DNA from: Trichomonas vaginalis G3
Taxonomy: Eukaryota > Parabasalia > Trichomonadida > Trichomonadidae
DNA: 64,000 nucleotides
Reading direction: 5' to 3'
NCBI RefSeq assembly: GCF_026262505.1
Contig: NC_067205.1
Coordinates: 18,845,645 to 18,909,644, forward strand
The position numbers and the translations under genes were made by a program. The notes beneath the pieces are model-generated. The model saw only the letters and a program-made list of their open reading frames with translations, did no database searches and was not told the origin of the DNA. This document shows positions 6,539 to 62,655 of the stretch, in pieces. Position 1 is the first letter of the stretch. Each line of letters begins with the position of its first letter.

Positions 6539-7504
6539 ATGATTTCAACAATCGGCACAACAGCAATACAAGCCGCGAACGGCGGGACTCTGTCCACAAC
6601 TACAGCACCAAACTCTTTAGTCATGAATCCAACATCTATGTTAGTAGAGATGAAAAGCTTCATTCCTTCTTCATATACTTTTGAAACAGAAATCCAGAAG
6701 ATAAAGCAAGAACTTTTAACAAGTAATTTAGACTGTAGTGCGAAAGATGAAACAAATGAACAGTATCTTTATGAAATGCAGGACATTATTGACCATTTAC
6801 CTAAACTACCTGAAATCCAACAACAAAAACTAACTATTCCTGAATTCGACGAAATTGAAGTCAAAACAACTGACTCAGTAGAAATAAAGAAGTTCATTCG
6901 TAAGGTAAACTATGAATTCCTTGGTTTTCATTGCAACCATAAAGTTATGGACAAAGATTGCGACATGGTTTATAAGAATGTTTCTGACATATATAAATCT
7001 GAAGAATTTAAGACCTACGATAACTTTGTTTCATTAGTTGCTGAATGTGTTTGGGAAATAAGAGATAAAGATAGAAGAGGCAAAGTATGGAACGAACAAC
7101 TAAGACCCGCTATGTTTGAGATGAAGAGAGCAATTGACGCCTTAGTTGTTCTAGCAGGTCAAATTTCAATGTATAACGCAAAAATGAACCCACAATGTTC
7201 TAAATGTAAAGCAGCAATGAGGAGATATAACTACTCCGTCAAAGAGATAGAAAGAATGAGAAACGACTATGCAGATTTAAAGAAAGAAGCAGAAAAACCA
7301 GCAGAAAATAAAATGGACATGTTGACATTTCTGAACAAAAATTATCCAACTGCTGACGATTTCCTTCTATCTGACGTCAAGAAGAAATATAAAGAAACCT
7401 TCGGCATTGTTAAAACATTCGATGTACTAAAAGAAGAAATAGAAGCTACGAAATTGTTTAGGATTTCAAATATACATCGTACAATTCATGTAAAACGCTT
7501 GTGA
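6539..7504 (+). CDS. Conserved Maverick protein of unknown function, inverted-repeat cassette
   Basis: An intact protein of 321 aa, homologous to 34758-35702 (minus) in B. I do not recognise a family. It has a Ser/Thr-rich N-terminus, charged helical stretches, one CxxC pair (PQCSKCKAA, about residue 218) that could bind metal with other residues, a coiled coil at about 230-260, and a basic C-terminus with RISNIHRTIHVK. Compared with B it has a 7-residue in-frame insertion near residue 13, produced by a 21-nt double-hairpin insert. The gene sits alone between inverted repeats, as it also does in B. It lies next to the KilA-N gene, which suggests a DNA-related role (inference). Confidence 0.8.
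   Translation: MISTIGTTAIQAANGGTLSTTTAPNSLVMNPTSMLVEMKSFIPSSYTFETEIQKIKQELLTSNLDCSAKDETNEQYLYEMQDIIDHLPKLPEIQQQKLTIPEFDEIEVKTTDSVEIKKFIRKVNYEFLGFHCNHKVMDKDCDMVYKNVSDIYKSEEFKTYDNFVSLVAECVWEIRDKDRRGKVWNEQLRPAMFEMKRAIDALVVLAGQISMYNAKMNPQCSKCKAAMRRYNYSVKEIERMRNDYADLKKEAEKPAENKMDMLTFLNKNYPTADDFLLSDVKKKYKETFGIVKTFDVLKEEIEATKLFRISNIHRTIHVKRL
6572..6595 (+). repeat. Double-hairpin mini-insert (DH-1), in coding frame
   Basis: GCCG-CGAA-CGGC followed by GGAC-TCT-GTCC: two adjacent small hairpins. The matching gene in B (near 35670) lacks 21 nt here, so the insert is polymorphic and in frame. Confidence 0.8.
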
Positions 7505-10608: not shown

Positions 10609-12129
10609 TTAAATATTATTTAAATATAATGGAGTAATAAAATAAATCGGAATTTCTATTAATTTATTGTCAACTTCAACTAATGCATTGCCGTTAATTA
10701 TCTAACAAATTCAGCTATTGTGTCAAATCTTCGTCTTCTTTTTGTCATTGATTTATCAGTTTTTCCATAATCGAGATGAATTAAAACTTTATTTCCTTGT
10801 TTAAAATTCATGAGCCCCGAATTAATTTGTTCACGTTTAAACATCATTTAACCTTTCATTTGCTTTCTAATATATTCCCATTCTTTTGAAATATCATTTT
10901 TCATTTCCACCGGTTTCATGTTTATAGTTCTATGCCATGTATTATTGTAATAATATACTAACTGTTGTATGATGGAGTCATGATTTCCATCCCAGTATAT
11001 CTGACCGTTAACCCCTAACGCATCTCTAAGAGTTCTCATTACCGCATCAACTATTTTATTATGAAACGTATATGGAGAGGATGAAAAGTAAAATTAATTT
11101 GTGGGAAATAATGAGCCATAGCTGCCTGAAATCCTTTATCACCATCACCCCTGATATTATCTACTCTTTCATGATCTAGTAAGTATTGTATAGCTCTTCT
11201 TGTTTCCTGTTCTGTTTTCCTTTCACCGGAATGCAATATAAATATCTAGTGTTAATGTTAATGGCAAATAAATAAGTAACGTTTCCTTTTGAATATTCCA
11301 GATGATCGATTTCGTATGAATATGGATATAGTGCAAATGAAGGGCGACTAAATTTTTCCTTTAACGGTTGAATTTTTGGGTCAATTGGTTTATTTAATAT
11401 CTTGAAATCCTTTTTAAAATCTTTTTGCTTCTTTAATGTTTGAAATGGATATAATAAAGTGAATGATGAAGGATTAACTGAAGGAGGAGGTACTACTGTC
11501 GTTGGAGGTTTTGGTGTTGCAAGTGGTTTAATTTTATCTGCTTTGATTTTGGATTTCATTCCTTCCTTCATTAATTCTGGATGTATTCTATTCATTTGTT
11601 TTAAATATGCTGTATATAAAGGTTTGATATACTTTCCCGCTTCGAGTTTATGTTGAAGGATGAATTCCAAAAGTTGATCTTCATTTAAAAGTCGGGCTGA
11701 ATATGGTTTAACTAATGAATCATAAATTAAAGCTTGTGCATCATTTATGGTCTGAAGGACCTGGGCGTTTTGTACCATTTGTTTTTGTTCCTTTGGCTTT
11801 TGCGGCTCGGGATTATATAATTTATATAATTCATCAATATCTTCTTCTGTTAATACTTTATTTTTGAAATCTTTCAACTGTTTAAGCTGTGATTTAGTTT
11901 TTCCCTTTGTATATTCATTATTTTTAATTTTGTCTTTAATTTTAGAAATTATTTTATCATGATATTTCAAAATTTCATTTTTATAATATGGATAATAATA
12001 ATAATCCATATCATCACCCGTTATATTTTTATTATATTTTTGGAGATATGCTTTTAAATCATAATAATCAAGAAAATTTTGATAAAATACTAAATCATCA
12101 ATTAAAATTTTTAAATCTGTGTTATCCAT
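10609..12129 (-). pseudogene. Maverick retroviral-like integrase (frameshifted copy)
   Basis: The rve-superfamily integrase of element A, colinear with 32104-33693 in B. The frame is open from the ATG at 12129 to about 11200. Frameshifts follow near 11236, 11045, 10850 and 10700, so at least four lesions inactivate it. The core residues are visible: Asp in the EIDHLEYS segment, Asp in GDGDKGFQ, and the Asp of NKIVDAVMRTL that occupies the usual Glu position. Compared with B it lacks about 20 residues of the Lys/Pro-rich linker before QNAQVLQTI. Confidence 0.85.
11749..11776 (-). repeat. Double-hairpin mini-insert (DH-5a) in integrase
   Basis: GGTC-TGAAG-GACC followed by a decayed GGCG/GTACC hairpin. 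It is present in both integrases and shares a run of about 20 nt with the insert in the fibre gene of B. Confidence 0.65.
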
Positions 12130-12231: not shown

Positions 12232-15200
12232 TTAAATAAATGGCATACAACATCCATTTTCACAACATACAGCCTTAGTGTGTGCTCCTGTTAATGCAGT
12301 CTTACCAATTGTTAAGCGAGTCATTGACCCGTTTTTAAGTTGTAAATTAATATTCTGACCATCGAAAATAACTTTATCATTTATTATATCCAAATATTTT
12401 TTAGGTGTTAATTGTTTATTTTGTCGTAAACTAACACCTTTCATTTTTTGTGCAATCTTTTTAAAATCACCTCCATCAATTGAACCGTTGAATGAAGTAT
12501 AACACTTAGGGCATAAAGCAACCATGTTATCACCTTGTTTCTCAATTGCTAAACCCAATAATTTTTTCTCATGTGCTTTTTCTTCAGCTTTATTCTTTAA
12601 TTTAGGTTTAAATTTCTCATCAAAACAGAAGAAATCAAAAGGTGCGAATTTGAAAATGTTTTTATCATAAAATTGTTTATCGGTTACAATCGCCTGAAAT
12701 GCTTGAGTGTTAGGAAGACTTGGATCGCCAGCAATAGCCCAATAAGATGAATCAGTATCACCTTCAATGAAATGAAAACGATTAACATCATGCATTTATA
12801 CATAAAATCATAAATGAAAACCAAATACCAGTATTTGCGTTATCTAAAGTGAAGAATGCCTCTTGTAAACATGTATCACATCTATAAAATCTATCTTTAA
12901 GCATCACTTGATATGTATCTTCACCTATTTCTCTTATGTTTTTAAACTTATTTGACATACATGCAACGCGTGCCTTCTGTGCATTCATTATTTTAGTCTT
13001 TGCGTAATTTTGTGTATTCATTGCATCGTAACCATATGATCCATTAAGTGAAATCTTGCAAAATAAACTTTTTCCTTTATTTCCTTCTAATTCAGCCTTT
13101 TGTCTTTCGTTCATAAATTCGTTCGCAAATTCATTAAAACAAGTATTTTTCGTAAATGTTAAAAATTGATTGAATGTCATCAATGATAAAATGAAATCTG
13201 TCTATTAGATACCAAAGATAATAAGAAGAAAATGGTTGATATTGGTTGTGTGTTGATGCTAACTGAGTTAATTTCCTCTGTTTCTGGTCAACTGGTAGAT
13301 TGTTTGATTTCATGTAATTATACATAAAACTGCCAATTGTTTTTTCATCTGTGATAATATCTAAGTTTCTTATTATCGGTAAAAAGTTTATGTAATCATT
13401 AATGTATTTTTCATCAATGTGACCCTTTACTTCAGCCACGAATAAAGTTTTTTCTTCTTAATTATTCCCAGTGCTTTTGCTTTCTTTGTTGCTGTATCAC
13501 AAATGATAACACCATTCAATCTTCCCGGCAATATACATTTTATGGTCAGTATATTGAATGAAATCATGAGGATTAGATGAAAATGATGAAGGATATAATG
13601 AATTAAAATCAACACCAACGAAATGAGTCATAATGTTGGTGTGTCCTCATTTGATACAGTTTTAGTTTCTGGACTATATGAAAGTTTATTAATGTGCGTG
13701 ATTCCTTTAAGATTTACTCTATGTTGAACATTTGATAGACCACCAGTAATTCCATTACGGAGAATGTGATAAGCTTCAACTGAATCTAAAGTCATTGGTA
13801 AATTATTTTTTAATGCATAATTTCTTAAATTGATTCTTAAACGTTGAACATCTTCATCTTTATTTGATTTTACGACATTGCAATAACAACACATTAACTG
13901 ACAATTTTCTTTGGTATGTGGTTTTTCATTATCGATTCTATCCAATGTTGGTTTATTTGCATATGTAAACGCTTTACCACACATTTTGCATTTAGATGAA
14001 AGGATTAAATCGTGATAGTATTGAAAATCATCCATTGAAACATTATTTTTAGTATCCCTTTCTGCTTTTTCATCTTGTTTCTTATATGATTCAATTTTAT
14101 ATTTCCAATACTTTTTCGTTAATTCAAAACTTGATTCCACATTTTCTTCTTCTGGATATGTTTCGTTAGGATTAAAGTCTTTATATGCTAAAGCGTAACG
14201 AATCATTGATGCATTCGATGATAAAGAAAGATTATGAAGCATGTCAATTTTATAAACAAATGTTTCTTCAATAATTTTATCAATTGGGTCAATCATAATT
14301 TCAACATCTTTATTGCAATAATGAATAAAATATTCTAATCTATTCTTAAAATTTTTAGCATCATTGAGATATATTTGATAATCACTATCTGATATAGTTT
14401 CTTGAGTTAATGCTGAATAAAATGAATCTTCGTGAATGGTTCCTCTTTATATAATTCTTCTTCGTAATTTTCCCATGTGATGAATTGATAAGGGAAAAAG
14501 GATTTAACACGTGATTTATTGTTTCCGAAATCTTGAGTGAATTGGTCTAATGTCCCACCCGCTATATAATTTCTGATGTCAATAAATCTCAATTCATATG
14601 GAACGTTTGTTTTCTTTACAATGATTTGCTTAAATTGAGAAGATGAACCCAGCATTGATTTTATTTTCCATTTTGCAGTGTTTAAATCACGAAGAATTAA
14701 ATTTAAATCAAACTTTCCCGAATTAAAACCTATGATATTCACTTTATTAAATTCTTCATCTAAAAGCTCTTTCATTGCTTCCTTTTGTTTCTCATTTAAT
14801 GTTTGCGACTTCATTAATTCTTCATATTGTTCAATATTTGATTTAGCAACTAATGAACAGGTTGAAAATAAAAATTCAATCCAATCAGAGATGAACGAAT
14901 CACTTGATGTTAAGCAAAAATTCCTCGTAAATGTTTTATCACGGTCTACGACCTCGCCGCTTTGCGGCTTTATTTTGACAGTTGATGATACCATAAATGG
15001 TTTTAAGTAAGCGTTTAAAGTTGCACATTCAGAAAGTTGAAGTTCTTCTTTAGTCTCTAATGTTTCGAAGTCAAAAGTAATATAATATCTTGTTGGTTTA
15101 TAATATTTCTGCAAATTATGTGCTAATAGCCATTGATATATCTTCTGTTTCGTGATATGTGGTGCATATGGTTGTTGTGTGTTTTGCAATTGAACGTCTT

Positions 15201-15754: not shown

Positions 15755-15791
15755 TAAAGTCCGAGACTCAGAGAGTCCAGGGCTAAAGTCC
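15755..15791 (-). repeat. Hairpin mini-insert (DH-6) at a stop codon with 8-bp direct repeats
   Basis: A 21-nt core containing GACTC-TCT-GAGTC is flanked by direct TAAAGTCC repeats (15755-15762, 15784-15791). In B the same place reads straight through (near 28410). The inserted sequence restores the final Gly-Leu-stop codons of the gene ending at 15783. Confidence 0.7.
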
Positions 15792-17972: not shown

Positions 17973-18127
17973 GACGATATCGTAAATTCCTTTAAAATCT
18001 GAATCTGAATCTGAAAAATATTTATAAAAGCATTCTTCATTATGATTTCATTAATTTATAGATTGTAGTTTTCAATTATAACGGCGCCTTCAGAATTTTG
18101 ATATAATCACGTATTTTAAAATTTTTG

Positions 18128-19617
18128 ATGCTTCACCTACTATTTCATCATTCGTCATCGATCGAAGAAAATTATACACGGATACTGCATTCAATAAATC
18201 CGTCTCGGGGTATGCATAAACAAAAAATTAAATCAACAAATAAAATGAATGAAGCAAGAGATATCAGACAAATTGATGCTGTATTGCCTCCATATGTATC
18301 TGATGATGAATTAACTCTTCAATTTACAAACGATGAAGTAAAAACAATTCAAATTAGGGCTTGGTCTTCATATATAACAATTGCTGTATTCAGAAATGCA
18401 AATATGTTTATGCTCGAAAATGGAGAACCTTTGAAGCCTGTTTATTCATTAATAAATGAAAATGAACATGAATATGAAAAATCAATTTTACTTAGAATAA
18501 AAGGTCGCCAGCCAAATTTAGTTCTTCAATATAATGGAATTTCAGAACGTTATTCATCTGATATGCATGTAAGTGTAGTTATCAATGTTAAAGATTTTAC
18601 TTATGAATTGCCACAATTAACAAACTCACATTTAATAATTGCTTATGCAAATAAACCAACACATTATGTAAAAGAATTAGTCAATCAAGTTATGGTTACT
18701 ATCAAGGAAATCTATATTTTACTGATATCCATGAAAATTATGGGACTTGTGTTCATATTGATATGGAAAAAAGTGTTGAATATGAAATATCAGGAATATT
18801 TGATGTTGATGGTTGTCTTCCTGCATTTAAAGATGCTAAAAAAGTTGAAGTCATTTTTTCAGATGAACTAAAAACACTTAAAATTGATTCAACACCGATA
18901 AAAGTCATTTGTATGACAAAATGCGAACAGATTGTTGTTATGTCAAATGTTGCAGGAATCAAACGCGAAGATAATTACACAGATGATTCATCGATTCTTT
19001 CATCAACAAATGGACCACAAAATATATTAGTTTTCTTCATAAAGAAATCATTTTGGTCTTCCAAATATAATTATTCAGTTAACACAATTTCCGAAATGCA
19101 ATCAGCATATTATTTTGAGTCTTCTAATACAAATCAATATATCTACTCTTATTCACCGTTTTCAGTGAAAGTAAGATATTATATAGGACCACAAAGTAAG
19201 TCTAGGAGTCATATTTATTGTAAAAATAATAACAATGAATTATTACTATCAGAAGATTTAAAGGAATCAGAGATTTATTCATGTAGTCATACAAACTATA
19301 TTAACATTTTATTAATTGACGGAAGGATCGAACTTTCTGATTTTAAATTTGATGATCCAAAGATATCAAATGAAGGCTATCCTCAGTATGATAATGGAAA
19401 TTTGAAGCCATTATGGTTACCAAAAACACAAACATCGAATGAAACTTCAGGTACTGATAATCAGAAGAATAGTTCTAGTAATAAAGCTCCAGCTGGTGCA
19501 ATTTCTGGAATCGTCATTGGTATTATTATTGAAATTGCAATATTTATTATTGCATTTATTGTTATCCGAAAATACAAATCATCAACAACAAATACTGATG
19601 TAGGTGAAGAAGTTTAA
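18128..19617 (+). pseudogene. X, one-pass membrane protein (frameshifted copy 1)
   Basis: Copy of the intact gene at 25338-26837. A single A is missing in the run near 18671, which shifts the frame after THYVK. The downstream frame is open from there to the stop at 19615-19617 and includes the membrane segment (AISGIVIGIIIEIAIFIIAF) and basic tail. The start is the ATG at 18128. If the missing A is a sequencing error, the gene is intact. Confidence 0.8.
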
Positions 19618-19970
19618 ATTTTCTTATTGAATAAAAATTTACATTTGATTTTTCTATATGAACTTCTATAAAAAATATATTGTCTTACAGAAATCTCCAA
19701 ATTTAAACCATTTCATATAGTTTGATTGTGCAAAACCTATATTCTTAATATAAATTCACTCCCATTTCACTTTATCAAGAATATTCTATTCAAAAGTTAT
19801 TGCCCATATTGTAATTCAACTCCGCTGTTTTGCTGATAATATAGAATGATTCAAACATTCAAAATTAGTACTTGAAATTAATTTTAATTTTGAATTATAG
19901 GAAGGAAGTTCAATATGGTGTCACCCCCTTTCATTTTTAAAATTTAATTCGGGAGTCTTTTTGGCTCTAA

Positions 19971-20963
19971 ACCAAGTTCAAATTAATTGCTTTTAGAAAA
20001 CATGTTCATTGTGAAGAAGTTACAAATAGTATTTGGCGTCTTTATTATGAAGGAATTGATCCTCCTTCTTCAGTCATTACAGGTGAAGTTCAACAAGTTC
20101 CTACAACATCGAGCAAATGCTTTGCATACATCTGTAAATTTATCAACTTACAAGATAGAGCAGTTAAATTCAAAAATACAAATGATTACTCGATTTTACT
20201 TTGCGAAAACGTTTTTTCAAAAGGTCCAGGTACAGTATATATTAAAAATTCTAATAATACTGCCATTATTATTGATAAATTCTGTTCATCTGAAAGTAAA
20301 TCTACTGTATTTGGCCAATTTCTTCATTTCGACGGCAAAATCAACAGTACAATCCTCCAAGGATCAATTTGTAATGGAGGAAATAGTTCAGTATATTGTA
20401 TGATTTACCAGCAATATGGTTTTGGATCACTTTCAAAAACAAACATTTCTAACTGTATTTCATATCGATATCCAGGTTTTGCTTATGGTTATGTTAAATC
20501 AACAGTAAATGTTTCATTTTGTAATTTTGAGAATTTAAAAGCAACTGACGGATTGATTACTTATTTTTATTGTCCAGGAAGAATTGACCGATGTAATTAT
20601 ATAAATAATTCTCAAAATAATAAAAATTATGGAATTGTTTATGTTTCATCTTATAGACTTGATATTTTCGATTCATCTTTCCAAAACAATCCTCAAATTA
20701 ACAAAGGAAAATTATTTAAAGCAAGTGGTGGGCAGATTTATATCCATCGATGTAGTATTGATTCTTATTCATCTATTGGATATGTTGATACATCAGAAAA
20801 AGGAGAAGTTTCATTTAAGAATATATTAAAATTCATTGATTTAAGTCCATGTGAAGGAAATCTTGAAATAATATTATTTGTACAAAGAAAGAAAATAAAA
20901 TTTGTTCATTTTTTCATAATTTTCTTTTTGGTAAATATCATATTTCTATTTTGTTATTACTAA
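19971..20963 (+). CDS. Y, right-handed beta-helix repeat protein, no start codon visible (copy 1)
   Basis: The frame is open from 19971 (after a TAA) to 20963, about 330 codons. Its beta-helix pattern is typical of protist Pmp-like surface proteins: short strands ending in N/S/C, for example NCISY, VSFCNFENL, DRCNYINNSQ, FDSSFQNNP and IYIHRCSID. The frame has no ATG until 20400, so a 5' exon or signal peptide is missing or lost. Other frames in 19987-20403 are shadows. A frameshift near 20890 changes the last 25 or so residues compared with copies 2 and 3. Several turn positions differ sharply from the other copies. A surface or secreted role is inferred. Confidence 0.65.
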   Translation, partial: TKFKLIAFRKHVHCEEVTNSIWRLYYEGIDPPSSVITGEVQQVPTTSSKCFAYICKFINLQDRAVKFKNTNDYSILLCENVFSKGPGTVYIKNSNNTAIIIDKFCSSESKSTVFGQFLHFDGKINSTILQGSICNGGNSSVYCMIYQQYGFGSLSKTNISNCISYRYPGFAYGYVKSTVNVSFCNFENLKATDGLITYFYCPGRIDRCNYINNSQNNKNYGIVYVSSYRLDIFDSSFQNNPQINKGKLFKASGGQIYIHRCSIDSYSSIGYVDTSEKGEVSFKNILKFIDLSPCEGNLEIILFVQRKKIKFVHFFIIFFLVNIIFLFCYY

Positions 20964-21324
20964 ACGATAAAAATTAATAATTTTTCATATCTTCTGCATT
21001 TTTTAAACAAATAACGAGAAAAATATAGAAATAATAATGATATCAATTCGATCATAGTCAATGGTAACTTCATGTATAATGTTGTAAACCAAATAGAAAT
21101 ATTGTAAAAATTATTAAATTCTGTTTATAGTAGTCTTGGGAATTAATTCTAAATTAAAGGGATGATTTTGAAAGTCTGGCGTAGTTTGTATTTTAGAGAT
21201 AAATCCAAAAATATCAATTCTTTCATAGGAGAAAAATATCTTCGGGTGTTAAGTTGTAAACTAAGGCAGTGATCTTTTAACACATTATAATAAACTTTAA
21301 AATATTAAAAAAAATATTATGTTT

Positions 21325-24300
21325 TTAATCATACTCATTTTCATATGCACAAAATGATGACATTGGATCAACAATACCTTCATAAACTGTTTGATCGTCA
21401 ATCATATCAACTTCGAAGTCTTTGCAGAACTTGTTGATCATTTCTGTGCAATCATCCAGATCGGATTTGATTTTATCGATTTCGTCACCGGATTCAAATT
21501 CAATCAAAAGTTCGTTCACTGCTCTTCGATGTTGTTTAAGTGCTTTAACAAGACATTCTGAGAACTTAGAAACGTTTTCTTCAAGAAGTTCTGGATACTT
21601 TTGTTTGATAAAACTCAAACAGTCACGTGCACAGTTAGGATGTTGCAATGTTGTATAAAGCATTTCTTTGTATCGACAAAGATCTTTTCCGAAAATAACC
21701 ATTGGTGAATCCTTGAATGCACCAATGGGCATAGAAAGATATGGATCGAAGTCTTTGACAAGTTGATCAAGAGATGTGAATGCTCGGTTCAATGTATTAA
21801 CACATAATTCTTTAACACGAACTTCCTGGATCTCGATCTTCTTGATAGAAACACCTTGATGATAAAATGGTAATTTTTCTGATGTTTCGATGTAAAGAGT
21901 TTTAATAGGATTCTTCAGTTCTTCAGATGATTTCTGTGATTGTTTATTGATAGAAACAACTGATCGGAACTTATCCCATGAATGAGGAGCTTCATCACCT
22001 TCGATTTTATCATCCGATGGCTCTAATTGGATCAAACAAATACCATCACCTTTGCATTCCTCATGATGATCGCAATAATCTGTTGGACAAACAATTCCTT
22101 CGCGATTCTTCAGTTGTTGAACAAAATGGATTGTTTCCGTCTTCTTGCAGCAGTATATTCGTTGATCTTTCTTGCCGCCTTGTCTTCTTCACCATGAAGA
22201 ATGACAATGGAACACTGACACCAACTGTGTTTCCTGTAGAAATACTAGACAAATAATTGGACAATTTAGAACAGATTTCTTTAGACCGGCCGTAATCGCG
22301 GTTCTGATAAAGAACACGTAATGCCATTGATGACAAACCGCGCAATGTATAATATAACTGTGCTTCTTCGCATAACCAAACAGATGAATTCAAATATTCA
22401 ATCAAAAGATTTTCATTAAAATCAGACAACAAAATTTCGGCATCGGCATTCCTGCATCAACTTTAACTTTAGTTTCGACTTGAACTGAAGGAATGAAGAA
22501 GAATTCTTGATATGTTCTAGATCGGCCGTAATCATAGACATTGTTTGCCGTTCTGATTGGTTGTGTCGTTGATAAATGGAAACCGGGTGGTTTAGGCAAT
22601 CGTTCGTTCTTCTTTTTATTTTCGAGTTTTTCATGTTTAGAACGATGTTCAACAACCGTAGCAATTAAACATGTACAATGTAATTGTGAAACAAACGCTG
22701 AGATATAATCACCGGATTCGATATTGATACGAACTAATTCACTCAACCACTTTAAGCGCATGTTTGGAAAGTCCATGTTTTCATCAGCCAATGACATTAA
22801 TTGTTGACAACGAATGGACAATGCTTGTTTTGATGATTTCTGTTTTTCAACAATATCTGCAATGGATAAAGCAGAATCCATTCGATCACTAACTTTCTTT
22901 TTAAGTGATTTATTGTCTGGTGTAAGTTCTTTAATTATCAAAATATATTCTTTAAACATAGGAATCATTGAAACTTTGTTTTCTAAAAGAATTGTTGCGT
23001 ATTCATCAATGAATGAAAGTGTGGAAACATTAACTTGTTCATATCGATTGTAATCTTGTTTGAAACTGTTAATAATCAATGCGGTACTCAATGCACGTGA
23101 TTTTGCTTGTTTGTACATAATTAATTTAGTAGACATGATGATGAAATTACGTTCTAATGGATATGATTCGAATAATGAATCACAAAGTAAATACAAATAC
23201 TTGTAGTTATCTGTTGGTTGGTATCGACACAACAAAACTTCAATTAACTGGATGACTTCGTTCATGCAAACACCTAATTCGGATTTGACGTCAAACAAAA
23301 ATTTGATGTAAATATGTGTCAGCAAATCAAGAAGATTCAAGTTAATTTGTGGACATTCATATGTTGGTTTGATGACATCCAATGTGTCAGTGATGATTTT
23401 TCCGGTCAATTTAAGGAATGAAATGAAATGACACTTGAATGAGATAGATAATGAATGGAAGAATGATAATAACTGCTTCTGTTCACTGTTCTTGATTAAG
23501 AATAAAACAAATGGAATCAATGCAATTTGCATTCGTTTGTTAGACATAAATAATGGGGATTCAAAATGATTAGAACATAAATCAATAAGAGGGAATAAAG
23601 CAAATGCGATTCGTTGTCGAATACTATAACAAATCTCATCTAAGTTAGATAACAATCGAGCTAAAAAGCCTGCACAAAGTGCAAATGTGTCGGGATCACG
23701 ACCGCCAAAACATTGTTGTGTCGACAACAAAAATTGTGATGTAAGTTTCGAATAAGGAGAATACATAGCGTTTGTTGATAATGGTTTCATGTTGTTAGTC
23801 ATGTTGATCAAGAAGTGCTTAGAAAGAGATAATGGAGATAAGAAAATCCATTGAACTCGTGTAGCAGACATTGGATGTGCAATTATGGGTCTGACCTTAG
23901 ATATAGTTCGAAGGAATGTGTAAACGAATCGTACGATTTCTTCATTTCCAAGATCTGAAAGATTATGGAAGAAGAAGAGTCCCAATGACTCTGTAATGGA
24001 ATTGCAATCAATATCCTTAGTCAATAAGAAGCAAATCAAGTCAAGAAGTGAGTTGTTAATTGTAATTAAGTCTTGAGCTGTTGATTGAAGTTTGCCATCG
24101 GAGAAAACAATCTGCATAATGTCAAGAATAAGTGGTAAAGATGTTGAAAAGTCTGGAATGATTGTTGTTTCGATCTTTCCTTCAATGATTTCATGACAAA
24201 ATGCTTTAATCGCTTCCGGATAGAATGTTGGGAAGTCATCACCAATTGTTTGTGGATCGAAATGATTGAACAACCACTTTCGAAGTGATGTTCTACCGCC

Positions 24301-24952
24301 ATCGCCAAATGTGATCAATAATTGAACCAATGTTGGGAGAACTTTAGAATCGCGCTTCTTAATAAGTCGGCAGAAAAGAGGGATGATGTAAAGATCAGCA
24401 TATGACTCGTCAATTCCAGACAAACTTGGAATATCGAAATTATCAGTCAATGCCGTAGCCATGTTTTGAGGAGGGAAGTAGAATGGAGGGATAGTGATCT
24501 GTAATGACAAACCTTCTGATTTCTTTGGTGTTTGCAGAGTTACTTGGCATCTTTAGAAACTTTGCCTGCTTCTGAGAAAAGCTCGACTTCTACAGATGTA
24601 TTGTTATTACCTGAGATGCAACTTAATGGAATAACTGCTGTATCGATCGCTTTCTCTTTGATCTTAGAATTTTCTTCAACATGATAAAATTGAATCAGGA
24701 AATGACACTTTAAGATGTTTCTGTAGGGACGATCGGTATGAAATCAGGGAATGCGTGTTTTGGATTGCCATTGAACATCGGAGAAACATAAAAATCTGTA
24801 AGACCTGTGCAATTCTTGTTTATGATTATTTTGAGAGTCTATAATTTTTTGTAGTTTGGTTTCTCACATACGCAAGCTTTGAAGTAAACTTTTCCTGATT
24901 TAAGATTCAACGTAGTCCAAATATCGCGAATTGTGATGATTGGATAAAACAT
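21325..24952 (-). pseudogene. DOCK-family guanine nucleotide exchange factor-like gene, disabled (copy 1)
   Basis: DOCK proteins activate Rac/Cdc42-type GTPases. Read from the ATG at 24952 there is a DHR-1/C2-like region (HAFPDFIPIVPTE, FLIQFYHVEEN), a long helical scaffold, and a C-terminal DHR-2-like region (WLSELVRINIESGDYISAF, LYIETSEKLPF, VKELCVNTLNRA). There are two lesions present in all three copies: an in-frame TAG (here 24839-24841) and a 1-base loss near 22430. There are also private indels near 24720, 24540, 22190 and 22045. It is shorter than typical DOCKs because the N-terminal SH3/armadillo part is absent. It is convergent with Y. Confidence 0.75.
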
Positions 24953-25337
24953 TTTGATACATACTTATAAGATTGACCTAGCTGATTTGATTTCATCTCC
25001 TATTAAATGTAAGCTCAATTTGATTCGTAAAGATTCACGCCTTATGAACATAAGTATCTTAACATTCTCTCTTTGCTTCGTTAATATAGAATATTTTCAT
25101 CATCTGAATAATAAAATTATTCCTTATGATCTAAGATAAACTCAATTGTTTTTTTTCTTTGATCCGAATTCCACTTTTACGAGACGATATCGTAAATTCC
25201 TTTAAAATCTGAATCTGAATCTGAAAAATATTTATAAAAGCATTCTTCATTATGATTTCATTAATTTATAGATTGTAGTTTTCAATTATAACGGCGCCTT
25301 CAGAATTTTGATATAATCACGTATTTTAAAATTTTTG

Positions 25338-26837
25338 ATGCTTCACCTACTATTTCATCATTCGTCATCGATCGAAGAAAATTATACACGGATACTGCAT
25401 TCAATAAATCCGTCTCGGGGTATGCATAAACAAAAAATTAAATCAACAAATAAAATGAATGAAGCAAGAGATATCAGACAAATTGATGCTGTATTGCCTC
25501 CATATGTATCTGATGATGAATTAACTCTTCAATTTACAAACGATGAAGTAAAAACAATTCAAATTAGGGCTTGGTCTTCATATATAACAATTGCTGTATT
25601 CAGAAATGCAAATATGTTTATGCTGATGATGCTCGAAAATGGAGAACCTTTGAAGCCTGTTTATTCATTAATAAATGAAAATGAACATGAATATGAAAAA
25701 TCAATTTTTCTTAGAATAAAAGGTCGCCAGCCAAATTTAGTTCTTCAATATAATGGTATTTCAGAACGTTATTCATCTGATATGCATGTAAGTGTAGTTA
25801 TCAATGTTAAAGATTTTACTTATGAATTGCCACAATTAACAAACTCACATTTAATAATTGCTTATGCAAATAAACCAACACATTATGTAAAAAGAATTAG
25901 TCAATCAAGTTATGGTTACTATCAAGGAAATCTATATTTTACTGATATCCATGAAAATTATGGGACTTGTGTTCATATTGATATGGAAAAAAGTGTTGAA
26001 TATGAAATATCAGGAATATTTGATGTTGATGGTTGTCTTCCTGCATTTAAAGATGCTAAAAAAGTTGAAGTCATTTTTTCAGATGAACTAAAAACACTTA
26101 AAATTGATTCAACACCGATAAAAGTCATTTGTATGACAAAATGCGAACAGATTGTTGTTATGTCAAATGTTGCAGGAATCAAACGCGAAGATAATTACAC
26201 AGATGATTCATCGATTCTTTCATCAACAAATGGACCACAAAATATATTAGTTTTCTTCATAAAGAAATCATTTTGGTCTTCCAAATATAATTATTCAGTT
26301 AACACAATGTCTGGTCAACAATCAGCATATTATTTTGAGTCTTCTAATACAAATCAATATATCTATTCTTATTCACCGTTTTCAGTGAAAGTAAGATATT
26401 ATATAGGACCACAAAGTAAGTCTAGGAGTCATATTTATTGTAAAAATAATAACAATGAAATATTACTATCAGAAGATTTAAAGGAATCAGAAATTTATTC
26501 ATGTAGTCATACAAACTATATTAACATTTTATTAATTGACGGAAGGATCGAACTTTCTGATTTTAAATTTGATGATCCAAAGATATCAAATGAAGGCTAT
26601 CCTCAGTATGATAATGGAAATTTGAAGCCATTATGGTTACCAAAAACACAAACATCGAATGAAACTTCAGGTACTGATAATCAGAAGAATGTTTCTAGTA
26701 ATAAAGCTCCAGCAGGTGCAATTTCTGGAATCGTTATTGGTATTATTATTGAAATTGCAATATTTATTATTGCATTTATTGTTATCCGAAAATACAAATC
26801 ATCAACAACAAATACTGATGTAGGTGAAGAAGTTTAA
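25338..26837 (+). CDS. X, one-pass membrane protein of unknown function (intact copy 2)
   Basis: The only uninterrupted X gene, about 499 aa. It has a largely beta-rich ectodomain with several Cys (GTCVHID, DGCLPAF, ICMTKCEQ, IYCKNNNNE, IYSCSHTN). A Ser/Thr/Asn-rich stalk follows (about 430-455), then one membrane helix (AISGIVIGIIIEIAIFIIAF) and a short basic tail (RKYKSSTTNT). This is type I topology by inference; the N-terminus (MLHLLFHHSSS) is only a weak signal peptide. It differs from other copies by three extra residues near residue 95 (MLMMLE). The start used is the ATG at 25338; one codon upstream is TTG. I do not recognise the family. The Maverick lies 160 bp downstream. Confidence 0.8.
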   Translation: MLHLLFHHSSSIEENYTRILHSINPSRGMHKQKIKSTNKMNEARDIRQIDAVLPPYVSDDELTLQFTNDEVKTIQIRAWSSYITIAVFRNANMFMLMMLENGEPLKPVYSLINENEHEYEKSIFLRIKGRQPNLVLQYNGISERYSSDMHVSVVINVKDFTYELPQLTNSHLIIAYANKPTHYVKRISQSSYGYYQGNLYFTDIHENYGTCVHIDMEKSVEYEISGIFDVDGCLPAFKDAKKVEVIFSDELKTLKIDSTPIKVICMTKCEQIVVMSNVAGIKREDNYTDDSSILSSTNGPQNILVFFIKKSFWSSKYNYSVNTMSGQQSAYYFESSNTNQYIYSYSPFSVKVRYYIGPQSKSRSHIYCKNNNNEILLSEDLKESEIYSCSHTNYINILLIDGRIELSDFKFDDPKISNEGYPQYDNGNLKPLWLPKTQTSNETSGTDNQKNVSSNKAPAGAISGIVIGIIIEIAIFIIAFIVIRKYKSSTTNTDVGEEV

Positions 26838-28462: not shown

Positions 28463-31400
28463 ATGAACAAAAACGGAACAGCTAAAATGAATGATAATCA
28501 AATTAGAGCAGAAGGTAGAAGGTTATTTAAACGCTTCTATAACATTCCTGATGGTGTTAATCCTAAAACTCGTAGAAGCTATTTAAACGAAGCAATAGAT
28601 GCATATGAAGGGTTTGACATTTCATCAGAAAGTGAGAGATTAGCGAGAATGTTAAATGTTAATATTGATTTCTATTATTGTGATCCTCAACCAGAAGACG
28701 TGGACATAAATAAGGTAGACTTTCCATTAGTGGATTCAATAATGATAGATCCAGAATTTGAAACAGTAAATATTTTATTAACACAGAGTCCATGTGGAAA
28801 ACTTCACGCTGACAGAATAACAGACGTTGAAGCACTCACCGGCTATAAAGTTTGTCCATATTGTAAAGAAGAAGTTTATTCTATCCGCGATGATCCAGAA
28901 AGGAAAAACCAAAGAAGATTTTTAAAGCATTGTGAGAAATGTAAAGAAAATAATGGGAGATTAATTCAATACGTTCAGTTGCAAAAGACACAGCAACCAT
29001 ATGCACCACATATTACGAAACAGAAGATATATCAGTGGTTATTAGCTCACAATTTGCAGAAATATTATAAACCGACAAGATATTATATTACTTTTGACTT
29101 TGAAACATTAGAGACTAAAGAAGAATTACAACTTTCTGAGTGTGCAACTTTGAATGCTTACTTAAAACCATTCATGGTGTCATCAACGGTTAAATTAAAT
29201 GATAAAACATATACGAGGAATTTTTGCTTAACTTCGAGTGATTCTTTTATTTCTGATTGGATTGAGTTTTATTTTCAACCTGTTCATTAGTTGCTAAATC
29301 AAATATTGAACAATATGAAGAATTATTGAAGCCGCAAACGGTGGGGACTTTGTCTCATACATTAAATGAAAAACAGAAGGAAGCATTTAAAGAACTTCTA
29401 GATGAGGAATTCAATAAAGTGAATATCATAGGTTTTAATTCGGGAAAGTTTGATTTAAATTTAATTCTTCATGATTTAAACACTGCAAAATGGAAAATAA
29501 AATCAATGCTGGGTTCATCTTCACAATTTAAGCAAATCATTGTAAAGAAAACAAACGTTCCATATGAATTGAGATTTATTGACATCAGAAATTATATAGC
29601 GGGTGGGACATTAGACCAATTCACTCAAGATTTCGGAAACAATAAATCACGTGTTAAATCCTTTTTCCCTTATCAATTTATCACGTGGGAAAATTACGAA
29701 GAAGAATTATATAAAGTGGAACCATTCACGAAAGATTCATTTTATTCAGCATTAACTCAAGAAACTATATCAGATAGTGATTATCAAATATATCTCAATG
29801 ATGCTAAAAATTTTAAGAATAGATTAGAATATTTTATTCATTATTGCAATAAAGATGTTGAAATTATGATTGACCCAATTAATAAAATTATTGAAGAAAC
29901 ATTTGTTTATAAAATTGACACACTTCATAATCTTTCTTTATCATCGAATGCTTCAATGATTCGTTACGCTTTAGCATATAAAGACTTTAATCCTAATGAA
30001 AAATATCCTGAGGAAGAGATAGAATCAAGTTTTGAATTAACGAAAAAGTATTGGAAATATAAAATTGAATCATATAAGAAACAAGATGAAAAAGCAGAAA
30101 GAGATACTAAAAATAATGTTTCAATGGATGATTTTCAATACTATCACGATTTAATCCTTTCATCTAAATGCAAAATGTGTGGTAAAGCGTTTACATATGC
30201 AAATAAACCAACATTGGATAGAATCGATAATGAAAAACCACATACCAAAGAAAATTGTCAGTTAATGTGTTGTTATTGCAATGTCGTAAAATCAAATAAA
30301 GATGAAGATGTTCAACGTTTAAGAATCAATTTAAGAAATTATGCATTAAAAAATAATTTACCAATGACTTTAGATTCAGTTGAAGCTTATCACATTCTCC
30401 GTAATGGAATTACTGGTGGTCTATCAAATGTTCAACATAGAGTAAATCTTAAAGGAATCACGCACATTAATAAATTTTCATATAGTCCAGAAACTAAAAC
30501 TGTATCAAATGAGGACACCACCAACATTATGACTCATTTCGTTGGAGTTGACTTTAATTCATTATATCCTTCATCATTTTCATCTAATCCTCATGATTTC
30601 ATTCAATATACTGACCATAAAATGTATATGCCGGGAAGATTGAATGGTGTTATCATTTGTGATACAGCAACAAAGAAAGCAAAAGCACTGGGAATTATTA
30701 AGAAGAAAAATACTTTATTCGTGGCTGAAGTAAAGGGTCACATTGATGAAAAATACATTAATGATTACATAAACTTTTTACCGATAATAAGAAACTTAGA
30801 TATTATCACAGATGAAAAAACAATTGGCAGTTTTATGTATAATTACATGAAATCAAACAATCTACCAGTTGACCAGAAACAGAGGAAATTAACTCAGTTA
30901 GCATCAACACACAACCAATATCAACCATTTTCTTCTTATTATCTTTGGTATCTAATAGACAGATTTCATTTTATCATTGATGACATTCAATCAATTTTAA
31001 CATTTACTAAAAACACTTGTTTTAATGAATTTGCGAACGAATTTATGAACGAAAGACAAAAGGCTGAATTAGAAGGAAATAAAGGAAAAAGTTTATTTTG
31101 CAAGATTTCGCTTAATGGATCATATGGTTACGATGCAATGAATACACAAAATTACGCAAAGACTAAAATAATGAATGCACAGAAGGCACGCGTTGCATGT
31201 ATGTCAAATAAGTTTAAAAACATAAGAGAAATAGGAGAGGATACGTATCAAGTGATGCTCAAATATAGATTTTATAGATGTGATACATGTTTACAAGAGG
31301 CATTCTTCACTTTAGATAACGCAAAATACTGGTATTTGGTTTTCATTTATGATTTTATGTATAAATGCATGAATCTTAATCGTTTTCATTTCATTGAAGG

Positions 31401-31938
31401 TGATACTGATTCATCTTATTGGGCAATCGCTGGCGATCCAAATCTTCCTAACACTCAAGCATTTCAAGCAATTGTTACCGATAAACAATTTTATGATAAA
31501 AACATTTTCAAATTCGCACCTTTTGATTTCTTCTGTTTTGATGAGAAATTTAAACCTAAATTAAAGAATAAAGCTGAAGAAAAAGCACATGAGAAGAAGT
31601 TATTGGGTTTAGCAATTGAGAAACAAGGTGATAACATGGTTGCTTTATGCCCCAAGTGTTATACATCATTCAATGGTTCAATTGATGGAAGTGATTTTAA
31701 AAAGATTGCACAAAAAATGAAAGGTGTTAGTTTACGACAAAATAAACAATTAACACCTAAAAATTATTTGGATATAATAAATGATAAAGTGATATTTGAT
31801 GGTCAGAATATTAATTTACAACTTAAAAACGGGTCAATGACTCGCTTAACAATCGGTAAGACTGCATTAACAGGAGCACACACTAAGGCTGTATGTTGTG
31901 AAATGGATGTTGTATGCCATTTATTTAATACAATTTAA
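28463..31938 (+). pseudogene. Protein-primed DNA polymerase B with embedded HNH motif (one frameshift)
   Basis: Replicates the element by protein priming (family knowledge). The order is an N-terminal zinc-finger-like region (CPYCKEEV, HCEKCKE), Exo I FDFET (about 29090) and Exo II FNSGKFD (about 29435). Exo III YCNKDVE (about 29842) follows, then an HNH/C4 domain (30165-30300: CKMCGK, LDRIDN, CCYCNVVKSNK). Next come Pol A DFNSLYPS (about 30545), Pol B NGSYGYD (about 31110) and Pol C GDTDSS (about 31400), and a Cys-rich C-terminus. A T is missing near 29270 (element A has it), ending the first frame at 29290; the second frame reopens by 29326. All catalytic motifs remain. It may be functional if the deletion is an error. 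Confidence 0.92.
29331..29355 (+). repeat. Double-hairpin mini-insert (DH-2) in PolB
   Basis: GCCG-CAAA-CGGT then GGAC-TTT-GTCT. It adds 21 nt in frame relative to element A (near 14815), just before Exo II. Confidence 0.8.
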
Positions 31939-32103: not shown

Positions 32104-33693
32104 ATGGATAACGTAGATTTAGAAATTTTAATTGATGATTTAGTATTTAATCAAAATTTTCTTAATTATTATGATTTAAAAGCATATCTCCAAAAACATA
32201 ATAACAATATAACGGGTGATGATATGGGTTATTATTATCAGTATTATAAAAATGAAATTTTGAAATATCATGATAAAATAATTTCTAAAATTAAAGACAA
32301 AATTAAAAATAATGAATATACAAAGGGAAAAACTAAATCACAACTTAAACAATTGAAAGATTTCAAAAATAAAATATTAACAGAAGAAGATATTGATGAA
32401 TTATATAAATTATATAATCCTGAGCCGCAAAAGCCAAAGGAACAAAAGCCAAAGAAGAAAAAGCCGAAAACAACACCAAAAGAGAAAGTAGCAAATGTTC
32501 AACAGCTAAAGGTGCAAAACGCCCAGGTCCTTCAGACCATAAATGATGCACAAGCTTTAATTTATGATTCATTAGTTAAACCATATTCAGCCCAACTTTT
32601 AAATGAAGATCAACTTTTGGAATTCATCCTTCAACATAAACTCGAAGTGGGAAAGTATATCAAACCTTTATATACAACATATTTAAAACAAATGAATAGA
32701 ATACATCCAGAATTAATGAAAGGAGGAATGAAATCCAAAACTTCATCATCCAAAATCAAAGCAGATAAAATTAAACCACTTGCAACACCAAAACCTCCAA
32801 CGGTAGTACCTCCTCCTTCAGTTAATCCTTCATCATTCACTTTATTATATCCATTTCAAACATTAAAGAAGCAAAAAGATTTTAAAAAGGATTTCAAAAT
32901 ATTAAATAAACCAACTGACCCAAAAATTCAACCGTTAAAGGAAAAATTTAGTCGCCCTTCATTTGCACCATATCCATATTCATACGAAATCGATCATTTA
33001 GAATATTCAAAAGGAAAAGTTACTTATTTATTTACCATTAACATTAACACCAGATATTTATATTGCATTCCGGTGAAAGGGAAAACAGAACAGGAAACAA
33101 GAAGAGCTATTCAATACTTACTAGATCATGAAAGAGTAGATAATATAAGGGGTGATGGTGATAAAGGATTTCAGGCAGCTATGGCTCATTATTTCCCACA
33201 AATTAATTTTTACTTTTCATCCTCTCCATATACGTTTCATAATAAAATAGTTGATGCGGTAATGAGAACTCTTAGAGATGCGTTAGGGGTTAACGGTCAG
33301 ATATACTGGGATGGAAATCATGACTCCATCATACAACAGTTAGTATATTATTACAATAATACATGGCATAGAACTATAAACATGAAACCAGTGGAAATGA
33401 AAAATGATATTTCAAAAGAATGGGAATATATTAGAAAGCAAATGGAAAGGTTAAATGATGTTAAACGTGAACAAATTAATTCGGGGCTCATGAATTTTAA
33501 ACAAGGGGATAAAGTTTTGATTCATCTCGATTATGGAAAAACTAATAAATCAATGACAAAAAGAAGACGAAGATTTGACACAATAGCTGAATTTGTTAGA
33601 TATATTAACGGTAATGTATTAGTTGAAGTTGACAATAAATTAATAGAAATTCCGATTTATTTTATTACTCCATTATATTTAAATAATATTTAA
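32104..33693 (+). CDS. Maverick retroviral-like integrase (intact)
   Basis: A protein of 529 aa that would insert the element, making the 6-bp duplication. Residues 1-100 are helical, and a Lys/Pro-rich linker follows at about 105-235. The rve catalytic core at about 290-420 carries Asp297 (EIDHLEYS) and Asp351/353 (GDGDKGFQ). Asp384 (NKIVDAVMRTL) stands where most integrases have Glu. The C-terminal domain is basic and beta-rich (FKQGDKVLIHLDYG, TKRRRRFDTIAEF), like the integrase SH3-type domain. The start is the ATG at 32104 in a TATAAATG context. The linker holds a double-hairpin insert at 32511-32538. It lies downstream of PolB on the same strand. Confidence 0.93.
   Translation: MDNVDLEILIDDLVFNQNFLNYYDLKAYLQKHNNNITGDDMGYYYQYYKNEILKYHDKIISKIKDKIKNNEYTKGKTKSQLKQLKDFKNKILTEEDIDELYKLYNPEPQKPKEQKPKKKKPKTTPKEKVANVQQLKVQNAQVLQTINDAQALIYDSLVKPYSAQLLNEDQLLEFILQHKLEVGKYIKPLYTTYLKQMNRIHPELMKGGMKSKTSSSKIKADKIKPLATPKPPTVVPPPSVNPSSFTLLYPFQTLKKQKDFKKDFKILNKPTDPKIQPLKEKFSRPSFAPYPYSYEIDHLEYSKGKVTYLFTININTRYLYCIPVKGKTEQETRRAIQYLLDHERVDNIRGDGDKGFQAAMAHYFPQINFYFSSSPYTFHNKIVDAVMRTLRDALGVNGQIYWDGNHDSIIQQLVYYYNNTWHRTINMKPVEMKNDISKEWEYIRKQMERLNDVKREQINSGLMNFKQGDKVLIHLDYGKTNKSMTKRRRRFDTIAEFVRYINGNVLVEVDNKLIEIPIYFITPLYLNNI
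32511..32538 (+). repeat. Double-hairpin mini-insert (DH-5b) in integrase linker
   Basis: Decayed first hairpin (GGTGC/ACGCC), then a perfect GGTC-CTTCA-GACC. Together with flanking bases it encodes AQVLQT, the same peptide found near the start of the unrelated fibre gene. Confidence 0.7.
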
Positions 33694-34762: not shown

Positions 34763-35702
34763 AGCTTTTTACATGAATTGTACGATGTATATTTGAAATC
34801 CTAAACAATTTCGTAGCTTCTATTTCTTCGCTGAGGATATCAAAAGTTTTAACAATGCCGAAAGTTTCTTTATACTTCTTCTTGACGTCAGATAAAAGGA
34901 AATCTTCTGCTGTTGGATAGTTTTTATTAAGAAATGTCAACATATCCATTTTATCTTCTGCTGGCTTTTCTGCTTCTTTCTTTAAGTCTGCATAGTCGTT
35001 TCGCATGCTTTCTATCTCTTTGACTGAGTAGTTATATTTTCTTATTGCTGCTTTACATTTTGAACATTGCGGCATCGTTTTTGCGTTATACATTGAAATA
35101 AAACCAGCTAGAACAACTAAGGCGTCAATGGTTTTCTTTAACTCAAAAGCTGCTGGTTTTATCTGTTCATTCCATACTTTACCTCTTCTATCTTTATCTC
35201 TTATCTGCCATACACATTTTGCAACTAATGAAACAAAGTTATCGTATGTCTTAAATTCTTCGGATTTGTAAAGGTCAGAAATATTTTTATAAACCATGTC
35301 GCAATCTTTGTCCATAACTTTATGGTTGCAATGAAAACCAAGGAATTCATAATTTACTTTACGTATGAATTTCTTAATTTCTACTGAGTCAGTTGCTTTG
35401 ACTTCAATTTCGTCGAATTCAGGAATAGTTAGTTTTTGCTGCTGAATTTCAGGTAGTTTAGGCAAATGGTCGATGAGGTCCTCCATTTCATAAAGATACT
35501 GTTCATTTGTTTCATCTTTCGCACTACAGTCTAAATTACTTGTTAAAAGTTCTTGCTTTATCTTCTGGATTTCTGTTTCAAAAGTATATGAAGAAGGAAT
35601 AAAGCTTTTCATCTCTACCAACATTGACGTAGGATTCATGACTAGCGAGTTTGGTGCTGTAGTTGTGGCTTGAATTGTTGTTGTGCCGATTGTTGAAATC
35701 AT
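34758..35702 (-). CDS. Conserved Maverick protein of unknown function, inverted-repeat cassette (B copy)
   Basis: Ortholog of 6539-7504 in A, about 314 aa from the ATG at 35702, which is the same start codon as in A; the longer upstream reading is judged non-genic. It contains the same CxxC pair (PQCSKCKAA) and C-terminal RISNIHRTIHVK. It lacks the 7-residue insert seen in A. The 3' end overlaps the inverted-repeat arm by a few bases. No family is recognised. Confidence 0.8.
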   Translation of the reverse strand: MISTIGTTTIQATTTAPNSLVMNPTSMLVEMKSFIPSSYTFETEIQKIKQELLTSNLDCSAKDETNEQYLYEMEDLIDHLPKLPEIQQQKLTIPEFDEIEVKATDSVEIKKFIRKVNYEFLGFHCNHKVMDKDCDMVYKNISDLYKSEEFKTYDNFVSLVAKCVWQIRDKDRRGKVWNEQIKPAAFELKKTIDALVVLAGFISMYNAKTMPQCSKCKAAIRKYNYSVKEIESMRNDYADLKKEAEKPAEDKMDMLTFLNKNYPTAEDFLLSDVKKKYKETFGIVKTFDILSEEIEATKLFRISNIHRTIHVKSL

Positions 35703-37215: not shown

Positions 37216-37244
37216 GCTCTTTTGGAGCTCAGGACTTTCAGTCC
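37216..37244. repeat. Double-hairpin mini-insert (DH-7), intergenic
   Basis: GCTC-TTTTG-GAGC, TCA, then GGAC-TTTCA-GTCC. It is followed by a third hairpin, GTTTG-TTTCA-CAAAC (37253-37267), with the same loop. It is absent after the fibre gene of element A (5373-5400). Confidence 0.7.
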
Positions 37245-51709: not shown

Positions 51710-52094
51710 TTTGATACATACTTATAAGATTGAGTTAGCTGATTTGATATAATCTCCTATTAAATGTAAGCTCAATTTGATTCGTAAAGATTCACGCCTT
51801 ATGAACATAAGTATCTTAACATTCTCTCTTTGCTTCGTTAATATAGATATTTTCATCATCTGAATAATAAAATTATTCCTTATGATCTAAGATAAACTCA
51901 ATTTTTTTTTTTTCTTTGATCCGAATTCCACTTTTACGAGACGATATCGTAAATTCCTTTAAAATCTGAATCTGAATCTGAAAAATATTTATAAAAGCAT
52001 TCTTCATTATGATTTCATTAATTTATAGATTGTAGTTTTCAATTATAACGGCGCCTTCAGAATTTTGATATAATCACGTATTTTAAATTTTTTG

Positions 52095-53584: not shown

Positions 53585-53935
53585 ATTTTCTTATTGAATA
53601 AAAATTTACATTTGATTTTTCTATATGAACTTCTATAAAAAATATATTGTCTTACAGAAATCTCCAAATTTAAACCATTTACTATAGTTTGATCGTGCAA
53701 AACCTATATTCTTAATATAAATTCACTCCCATTTCACTTTATCAAGAATATTCTATTCAAAAGTTATTGCCATATTGTAATTCAACTCCGCTGTTTTGCT
53801 GATAATATAGAATGATTCAAACATTCAAAATTAGTACTTGAAATTAATTTTAATTTTGAATTATAGGAAGGAAGTTCAATATGGTGTTACCCCCTTTCAT
53901 TTTTAAAATTTAATTCGGGAGTCTTTTTGCTCTAA

Positions 53936-54946: not shown

Positions 54947-55300
54947 AAATTAATAATTTTTCATATCTTCTGCATTTTTTAAACAAATAACGAGAAAAAT
55001 ATAGAAATAATAATGATATCAATTCGATCATAGTCAATGGTAACTTCATGTATAATGTTGTAAACCAAATAGAAATATTGTAAAAATTATTAAATTCTGT
55101 TTATAGTAGTCTTGGGAATTAATTCTAAATTAAAGGGATGATTTTGAAAGTCTGGCGTAGTTTGTATTTTAGAGATAAATCCAAAAATATCAATTCTTTC
55201 ATAGGAGAAAAATATCTTCGGGTGTTAAGTTGTAAACTAAGGCAGTGATCTTTTAACACATTATAATAAACTTTAAAATATTAAAAAAAATATTATGTTT

Positions 55301-58929: not shown

Positions 58930-59162
58930 TTTGATACATACTTATAAGATTGAGTTAGCTGATTTGATATAATCTCCTATTAAATGTAAGCTCAATTTGA
59001 TTCGTAAAGATTCACGCCTTATGAACATAAGTATCTTAACATTCTCTCTTTGCTTCGTTAATATAGATATTTTCATCATCTGAATAATAAAATTATTCCT
59101 TATGATCTAAGATAAACTCAATTGTTTTTTTTTTTTCTTTGATCCGAATTCCACTTTTACGA

Positions 59163-61830: not shown

Positions 61831-61834
61831 TTGC

Positions 61835-62362: not shown

Positions 62363-62655
62363 CACAACTCAAAATTATTGCTTTTTTTTCAAATTGTCTA
62401 TTCATCCATCTTTACATATTTATTATCTCCTCCGTTTCCCCTCGCAAATTCTTTTAATTTTCTGAATAATACGTATAATAAAATGAATATCTCAAAAACT
62501 AAAACACAAAATTAATGTTGGAAAATGACTAGATATAATCTGAACTTTTGAATTCATACATTTTTGGAAAAAAATTGAATTTTCAAAAAAAGAGCTTATT
62601 TAGGTATGAACCTGAAGAGAAATTTTAAGGAAAATATTAAGTTGTGCAATTTGCA

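Follow-up and report, generated by a model that had tools for sequence, protein, structure and literature searches.

Near the N-terminus of a DUF3839 protein of Trichomonas vaginalis G3 lies a 24-nt double hairpin (site S1; 6572-6595, +), GCCG-CGAA-CGGC followed by GGAC-TCT-GTCC, that is translated in frame as AANGGTLS, and the question it raises is whether so short a structure could be a mobile element in its own right and, if so, how it would spread. The gene (6539-7504, +; Pfam PF12943, E 1.6e-156) lies in the window, by which we mean the whole 64,000-nt stretch of contig NC_067205.1 analysed here, and the proteins nearest to its ORF were, among those listed, from T. vaginalis G3, many of them named TVAG_. 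A preliminary description had taken this hairpin and those at 11749/32511, 14943, 15755, 29331, 37216 and 39367 for a single mobile, frame-preserving design carried by two Mavericks, A and B. The name Maverick is taken from that description and from the gene content returned by a profile search of the window ORFs, namely KilA-N, a DUF5906/VapE-like helicase, DUF3839 and a type-B DNA polymerase (PolB); integrase and capsid gave no match among the window ORFs scanned. The surroundings are nuclear and not organellar, with a 181-Mb assembly, six contigs of 20-40 Mb and Maverick-type genes around. Maverick B also holds a match to the phage baseplate Gp10 C-terminal domain (37277-37801, -; PF21939, E 1.8e-24), together with phage tail family matches.

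Double hairpins of a common layout in the window

A strict scan of the window, which required stems of 4 bp or longer with no fewer than 3 G+C, loops of 3-7 and a gap of up to 5, returned 16 double hairpins; ten dinucleotide shuffles gave 0.1 on average (range 0-1). Four of them, at 6572, 14943, 37216 and 39367, are loci already named, and the remaining 12 lie in a repeated 7.2-kb unit (three) and in a satellite near 62-64 kb (nine). Read on the gene sense strand, S1-S5 have the same layout, in which a first hairpin of 4-5 bp (e.g. GCCGC-AAA-GCGGC) is followed after 1-2 bases by a second of 4 bp (e.g. GGTC-GTA-GACC), with A-rich loops and a total size of 24-30 nt. We call this element E1; the one design first proposed is really two elements, E1 and the nested element E2 described below.

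In addition to S1, E1 is present at S2 in the PolB gene (14942-14968, -; 27 nt, GCCGC-AAA-GCGGC GA GGTC-GTA-GACC G on the sense strand), at S3, also in PolB (29331-29357, +; 27 nt), where hairpin 1 is slightly worn and L067 provides a less worn copy, and at S4 (39367-39396, -), a 30-nt insert with GGCGC-AAA-GCGCC CA GGTC-CTTCA-GACC. A worn copy occupies S5 (32511-32538, +), where four relatives, e.g. L111, form strict pairs at the same site, and the corresponding copy in Maverick A (11749-11776, -; from the alignment of A with B) is more worn still. S6 (37216-37244, -; GGACT-GAA-AGTCC TGA GCTC-CAAAA-GAGC) stands beside a gene and has other stems. The seven proposed loci are therefore strict at four, worn at 29331 and 11749/32511, and doubtful at 15755: this site, S7 (15756-15790, -), is a 30-nt presence/absence block that forms a double hairpin only in the variant L016, the window copy showing one clear hairpin only (GACTC-TCT-GAGTC), and it was rejected as a clear family member.

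S4 and S5 have 26 of 28 element letters in common and similar flanks, in two genes; judged from this likeness, S4 may have been copied from S5. The S2 copy in L012 has the loop TTT in place of AAA with its stem kept, as if inverted in situ. As for the other repeats of the window, the unit of ~7.2 kb occurs four times, at 18002-26661 and 51940-60327 (spacing 7210, 26757 and 7217), its ORFs matching DHR-2 weakly, and the satellite at 61799-63918, inverted and 122-bp tandem, is rich in long hairpins (CCGACAAGAGTG.., CTTCCGCATTC..).

Compensatory change and folding of the stems

The stems were said at the outset to change by compensatory pairs, and this is seen in an alignment of four E1s of equal length, of which the row for S8 was typed before that sequence had been seen and was later confirmed. 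Pairing was kept in all 36 cells, and three of the nine pairs had changed on both sides. The covariation score was 0.407, a value matched by one of 500 shuffles, and structures slid along the alignment scored at most 0.093. Two weaker measures were less distinct: pairs with a both-sided change were as numerous in 13 of 500 shuffles, and further pair types in 133 of 500, which is not above the shuffles. Five stretches were folded as single-stranded DNA and gave z values of -2.2 to -5.1.

Filled, empty and scarred sites

Filled and empty sites differ by the hairpin block, with clean insert lengths of 24 nt at S1, 27 nt at S2 and at S3, 30 nt at S4 and 28 nt at S11. The insert length of 21 nt reported before proved to be a difference between an element and a scar (24-3, 27-6), and true empty sites at S1-S4 give 24, 27, 27 and 30 nt. 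At S1 the true empty state (a slash marks the junction) is CAA/ACAACT in L072 and CAA/ACAACA in L082, and Maverick B (35667-35669, -; position from the alignment) has kept GCC, 3 nt more than this. At S2 Maverick B is empty (29199-29200, +; TTAAA/TGAT; position from alignments), and at S3 Maverick A carries the scar GTCGCAA (14803-14809, -; position from alignments), 6 nt longer than the true empty GAA/TACATT. Presence in only one of A and B was confirmed for 6572, 14943, 15755, 29331 and 39367, but B at 6572 and A at 29331 and 39367 are scars, and for 37216 Maverick A offers no second flank to compare. E1 decays by short internal deletions that leave such scars.

Among 20 fetched copies of S4, one was cleanly empty (30-nt difference) and two had partial deletions; the empty copy is L095. 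At S11, Maverick A and L052 are empty, L027 and L157 are filled, and L146 and L203 hold E2. No empty copy of S5 was found in 20 fetched copies and both window copies, and no clean empty site for S6; L019, the sole candidate for an empty S10, had diverged too far for the ends to be fixed. For S2 and S3 we surveyed 30 loci (L039-L068), chosen by a site-free flank and including the window copy; being the best matches to the window copy, they give frequencies that are not those of the genome. At S2, 29 could be read: three were empty and 26 carried E1, among them one with E2 in addition and one with an E2 remnant. At S3, 29 were again readable: five were empty, 13 had scars of ~6 nt, two had E1, eight had E1 with a remnant GGACC, and one had E1 with a whole E2.

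Among DUF3839 proteins, 120 listed of 326, S1 is filled in eight, scarred in two and missing in 103, while seven start too late to tell. (In the DNA retrieval for S1, 15 of 20 short stretches did not yield the site and were dropped; the rows L001-L008 are uninformative on frequency, since the element was itself part of the query that retrieved them.) On the protein tree, this presence and absence requires at least six changes, which points to repeated gain, loss or recombination, and recombination among Mavericks may also shift states. The S2 insert is missing from the PolB relatives P0129, P0130 and P0131 (45-51% identity) where they cover the site, and the S3 insert from P0129 and P0130, the two outgroup PolBs that reach S3; the empty state is therefore the older one. 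E1 duplicates no target nucleotide at S1, S2 and S11 and 0-1 nt at S3 and S4, and at the clean sites it stands just after an A, in AT-rich Maverick DNA.

A second element nested in the loop of E1

Some copies of S2 and S3 have an addition of 36 nt within hairpin 1. It contains E2, another double hairpin of 34 nt (CGGACTC...GACCG; CGGACTCTTTGAGTCCTGAAGGTCTTTCAGACCG), whose 32-nt core has 222 matches in the genome at up to two mismatches, against 0 for the control. From 100 listed of these 222 places, all 100 of them exact, 40 were picked by hand, and every one of the 40 lies inside an E1, in the A-rich loop, at a single position and in a single orientation. They fall on six E1 sites (17 at S2, with L063 also nested, ten at S8, six at S3, three at S9 and two each at S10 and S11), and 39 of the 40 hosting E1s are complete, one at S3 having lost its right part.

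Loops free of E2 exist for all six sites (S2, S3, S8, S9, S10 and S11). With the loop left open as NNN in the search pattern, the loop of the E2-less form read AAA at every place found, 28 of 28 for S8 and 58 of 58 for S9. AA is duplicated at five hosts (NAA becoming NAA-E2-AA), and the junction at S3, AAAC...AAAC, needs one substitution to fit this rule. The host stems vary (GCCGC, GTCGC, GACGC, ACCGC) while E2 stays identical, so E2 entered standing E1s later, and the nested order is E1 first, then E2. Remnants of E2 that keep GGACC occur at four places for S2 and at 11 loci for S3; with other stems allowed, the remnant pattern was found at none of S8-S11.

A dispersed family in Maverick-like DNA

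Genome-wide, CCGCNNNGCGGNGAG gave 2332 matches and GCCGCAAAGCGGC 355 exact matches, with 0 for the reversed control of each. Few site types recur among the sampled places, so most of these matches were probably inherited along with Mavericks, and part of the E1-pattern matches are single intergenic hairpins (L149, L158). The distinct E1 sites are S1-S5, one in L009, S8, S9, S10 (L024) and S11 (L027), plus intergenic ones. In a sample of 20 preset stretches of two kb, where "Maverick-like" means similar to the window and L001-L068 only, 11.8 kb of Maverick-like DNA held two E1 copies (S10 and S4). The 28.2 kb of non-Maverick-like DNA in this small sample held none, with ~4.8 expected at the Maverick rate, and one unrelated double hairpin (L180). 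This distribution points to a Maverick-bound process.

Exact E2 had 0 matches in IMG/VR, from which records close to this genome may be left out; the E1 pattern had seven there, in loci of 53-73% GC, which were taken as chance. At L009, L035 and other intergenic loci, a composite GACCC-AAA-GGGTC AGA GCCGC-AAA-GCGGC occurs in both orientations, often beside AGGTGA..TCACCT palindromes.

Reading frame and coding effect

At least seven E1 sites lie within reading frames (S1-S5, S10 and the L009 site), where the inserts add peptides to a polymerase and to other Maverick genes. The majority of coding E1s (S2-S5, S10 and the L009 site) share one reading frame, from which S1 differs; this common frame may be due to selection. 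For S8 and the L009 site, the ORFs do not decide which strand is coding. The sense strand at S8 (L129) is open across E1 and E2 in one frame only, which is that of most coding E1s, and the unit at S9 (L140) has no open sense frame. The claim that insertion preserves the frame holds for the four coding sites at which a cleanly empty copy is known and fails at S11, where the insert of 28 nt, not a multiple of three, lies at the 3' end of a gene. Selection acting on coding copies is the best explanation for the preserved frame, since at the gene end the frame matters little, and a mechanism that seeks the frame was rejected.

Comparison with known hairpin elements

Rickettsia palindromic elements are palindromic inserts that lie in frame in protein-coding genes; they are bacterial and longer. 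E1 resembles them in its in-frame coding inserts of 24, 27, 27 and 30 nt at S1-S4 and differs in its host, T. vaginalis, and we know of no loop targeting by the Rickettsia elements. Bacterial REP elements are moved by RAYT transposases, and no such transposase was seen among the ORFs scanned here. REP elements are palindromic repeats of 20-40 bp in high copy number, tagged by GTAG or CGTC on one side (PMC3733652). By eye, the ends of E1 and E2 have no such tag, GTAG occurring only within hairpin 2 of S2.

The closest analogues are mitochondrial. The GC42 clusters of yeast mitochondrial DNA are described as GC-rich hairpins of ~40 nt in AT-rich DNA, present in many copies and polymorphic among close relatives, with duplicated AG target nucleotides, footprints, merging units and loops that vary more than stems (PMC4478555). 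E1 and E2 are like them in size, GC-richness, polymorphism, footprints and merging (PMC4478555). Yeast GC clusters are, however, mitochondrial, whereas E1 makes no duplication and E2 (AA at five hosts, S3 being off by one letter) is found only inside another element. The double-hairpin elements of chytrid and fission-yeast mitochondria are summarised as two adjacent GC-rich hairpins, potentially mobile, which in fission yeast are mostly intergenic or in rRNA genes (PMC10085805). E1 likewise joins two neighbouring GC-rich hairpins within an AT-rich genome and shows insertion polymorphism at homologous sites, but E1 and E2 are nuclear, occur in virus-like transposons and in many cases within their reading frames, and are nested by rule. 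A cryptophyte mitochondrial paper (PMC5910586) added nothing to the comparison. E1 and E2 thus seem to work like GC clusters and double-hairpin elements; the resemblance noted at first sight is one of form and behaviour, and we do not claim membership. A targeted, summary-level literature search, mostly outside subscription journals, returned no report that describes such hairpins in Mavericks or in T. vaginalis.

For mitochondria, the way in which mobile elements of 25-40 nt move is still an open question. Hundreds of Maverick copies provide filled, empty, nested and scarred states at the same sites, so that the rules of insertion, the sequence of events and the course of decay become directly visible.

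How E1 and E2 might spread

The mobility suggested in the preliminary description is supported by hairpins of one kind at many unrelated sites, by sites that are cleanly empty and by an identical E2 at six sites. We give an even chance to the reading that E1 and E2 are two gene-less, short, GC-rich mobile hairpins of T. vaginalis Mavericks, E1 inserting first and E2 in its loop, which spread by copying in replicating Maverick DNA. Strand-displacement synthesis by the Maverick polymerase would expose single strands, an exposed E1 would fold and its loop be nicked, a copy would be added through strand switching at a few shared letters, and insertions off frame would be lost by selection. Copying is suggested by the confinement to Maverick DNA in a small sample, by duplications that are missing or of 2 nt, and by the hairpins as pause sites, as hairpins naturally are. 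Since E1 makes no duplication and E2 one of 2 nt, two processes may be at work. More tentatively, and somewhat short of even, we propose that E2 is a second-order nuclear element that targets the single-stranded loop of a folded E1, one way round, and that the replication apparatus of a virus-like transposon copies both with no transposase. If true, such restriction of one hairpin to the loops of another would point to single-stranded folded DNA as the target. Exchange between E1 loops seems less likely.

Alternatively, a transposase acting in trans, from the Maverick or the host, might recognise the hairpins, placing E1 behind an A and E2, with 2 nt duplicated, in A-rich loops. We consider this unlikely but credible, as the ends are sharp, the E2 copies identical, the AA duplication present at five hosts and the orientation strict; against it, the E1 sites S1, S2 and S11 show no duplication, the design is absent from the 28.2 kb of non-Maverick DNA, and no transposase matched by Pfam among the 30 window ORFs scanned, some of which lie outside Mavericks.

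It is also conceivable, though improbable, that a composite of ~63 nt, E2 inside E1, was the original unit and that bare E1 arose by loss of the inner part. The finding of E2 in the 40 samples nowhere but within E1, the GGACC-keeping remnants at S2 and S3, and the S8 unit, open only in the usual E1 frame, would fit such an origin, but E2 is identical though E1 stems and second hairpins differ, the S9 unit has no open sense frame, and E1-pattern matches outnumber E2 matches about tenfold. In addition, the loss would have to restore an exact AAA loop in 28 of 28 cases at S8 and 58 of 58 at S9.

That nothing moves, the hairpins of an AT-rich genome forming anew through slippage or template switching and copies differing through deletions and Maverick recombination, is very unlikely: scars are compatible with slippage between short repeats and six changes are needed on the S1 tree, but the same E2 recurs at six unrelated sites, E1 relatives stand at non-homologous sites and the outgroup PolBs are in the empty state. 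Selected RNA signals, such as for mRNA 3' ends or stability, instead of selfish inserts, are more improbable still, for although some hairpins are intergenic or at a gene 3' end (S6, S11, the intergenic GACCC/GCCGC clusters) and their stems change in compensation, at least seven lie in reading frames, many copies have no hairpin, and E2 repeatedly enters loops.

Under copying in replicating Maverick DNA, the candidate for the nicking nuclease would be an endonuclease VII-like region in PolB, a link that we offer as a guess based on co-occurrence. The PolB ORF that hosts S3 (29326-31938, +) holds this endonuclease VII/HNH-like region at about aa 231-351 (phrog_1035, E 1.9e-11, aa 231-341), between the exonuclease and polymerase matches.

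As a separate observation, the metagenome PolB relative P0130 shows, read by eye, a similar cysteine- and HNH-like stretch. It is filed under a Rikenellaceae bacterium MAG, has ~45% identity to part of the T. vaginalis Maverick PolB, and probably comes from a misbinned eukaryotic contig.
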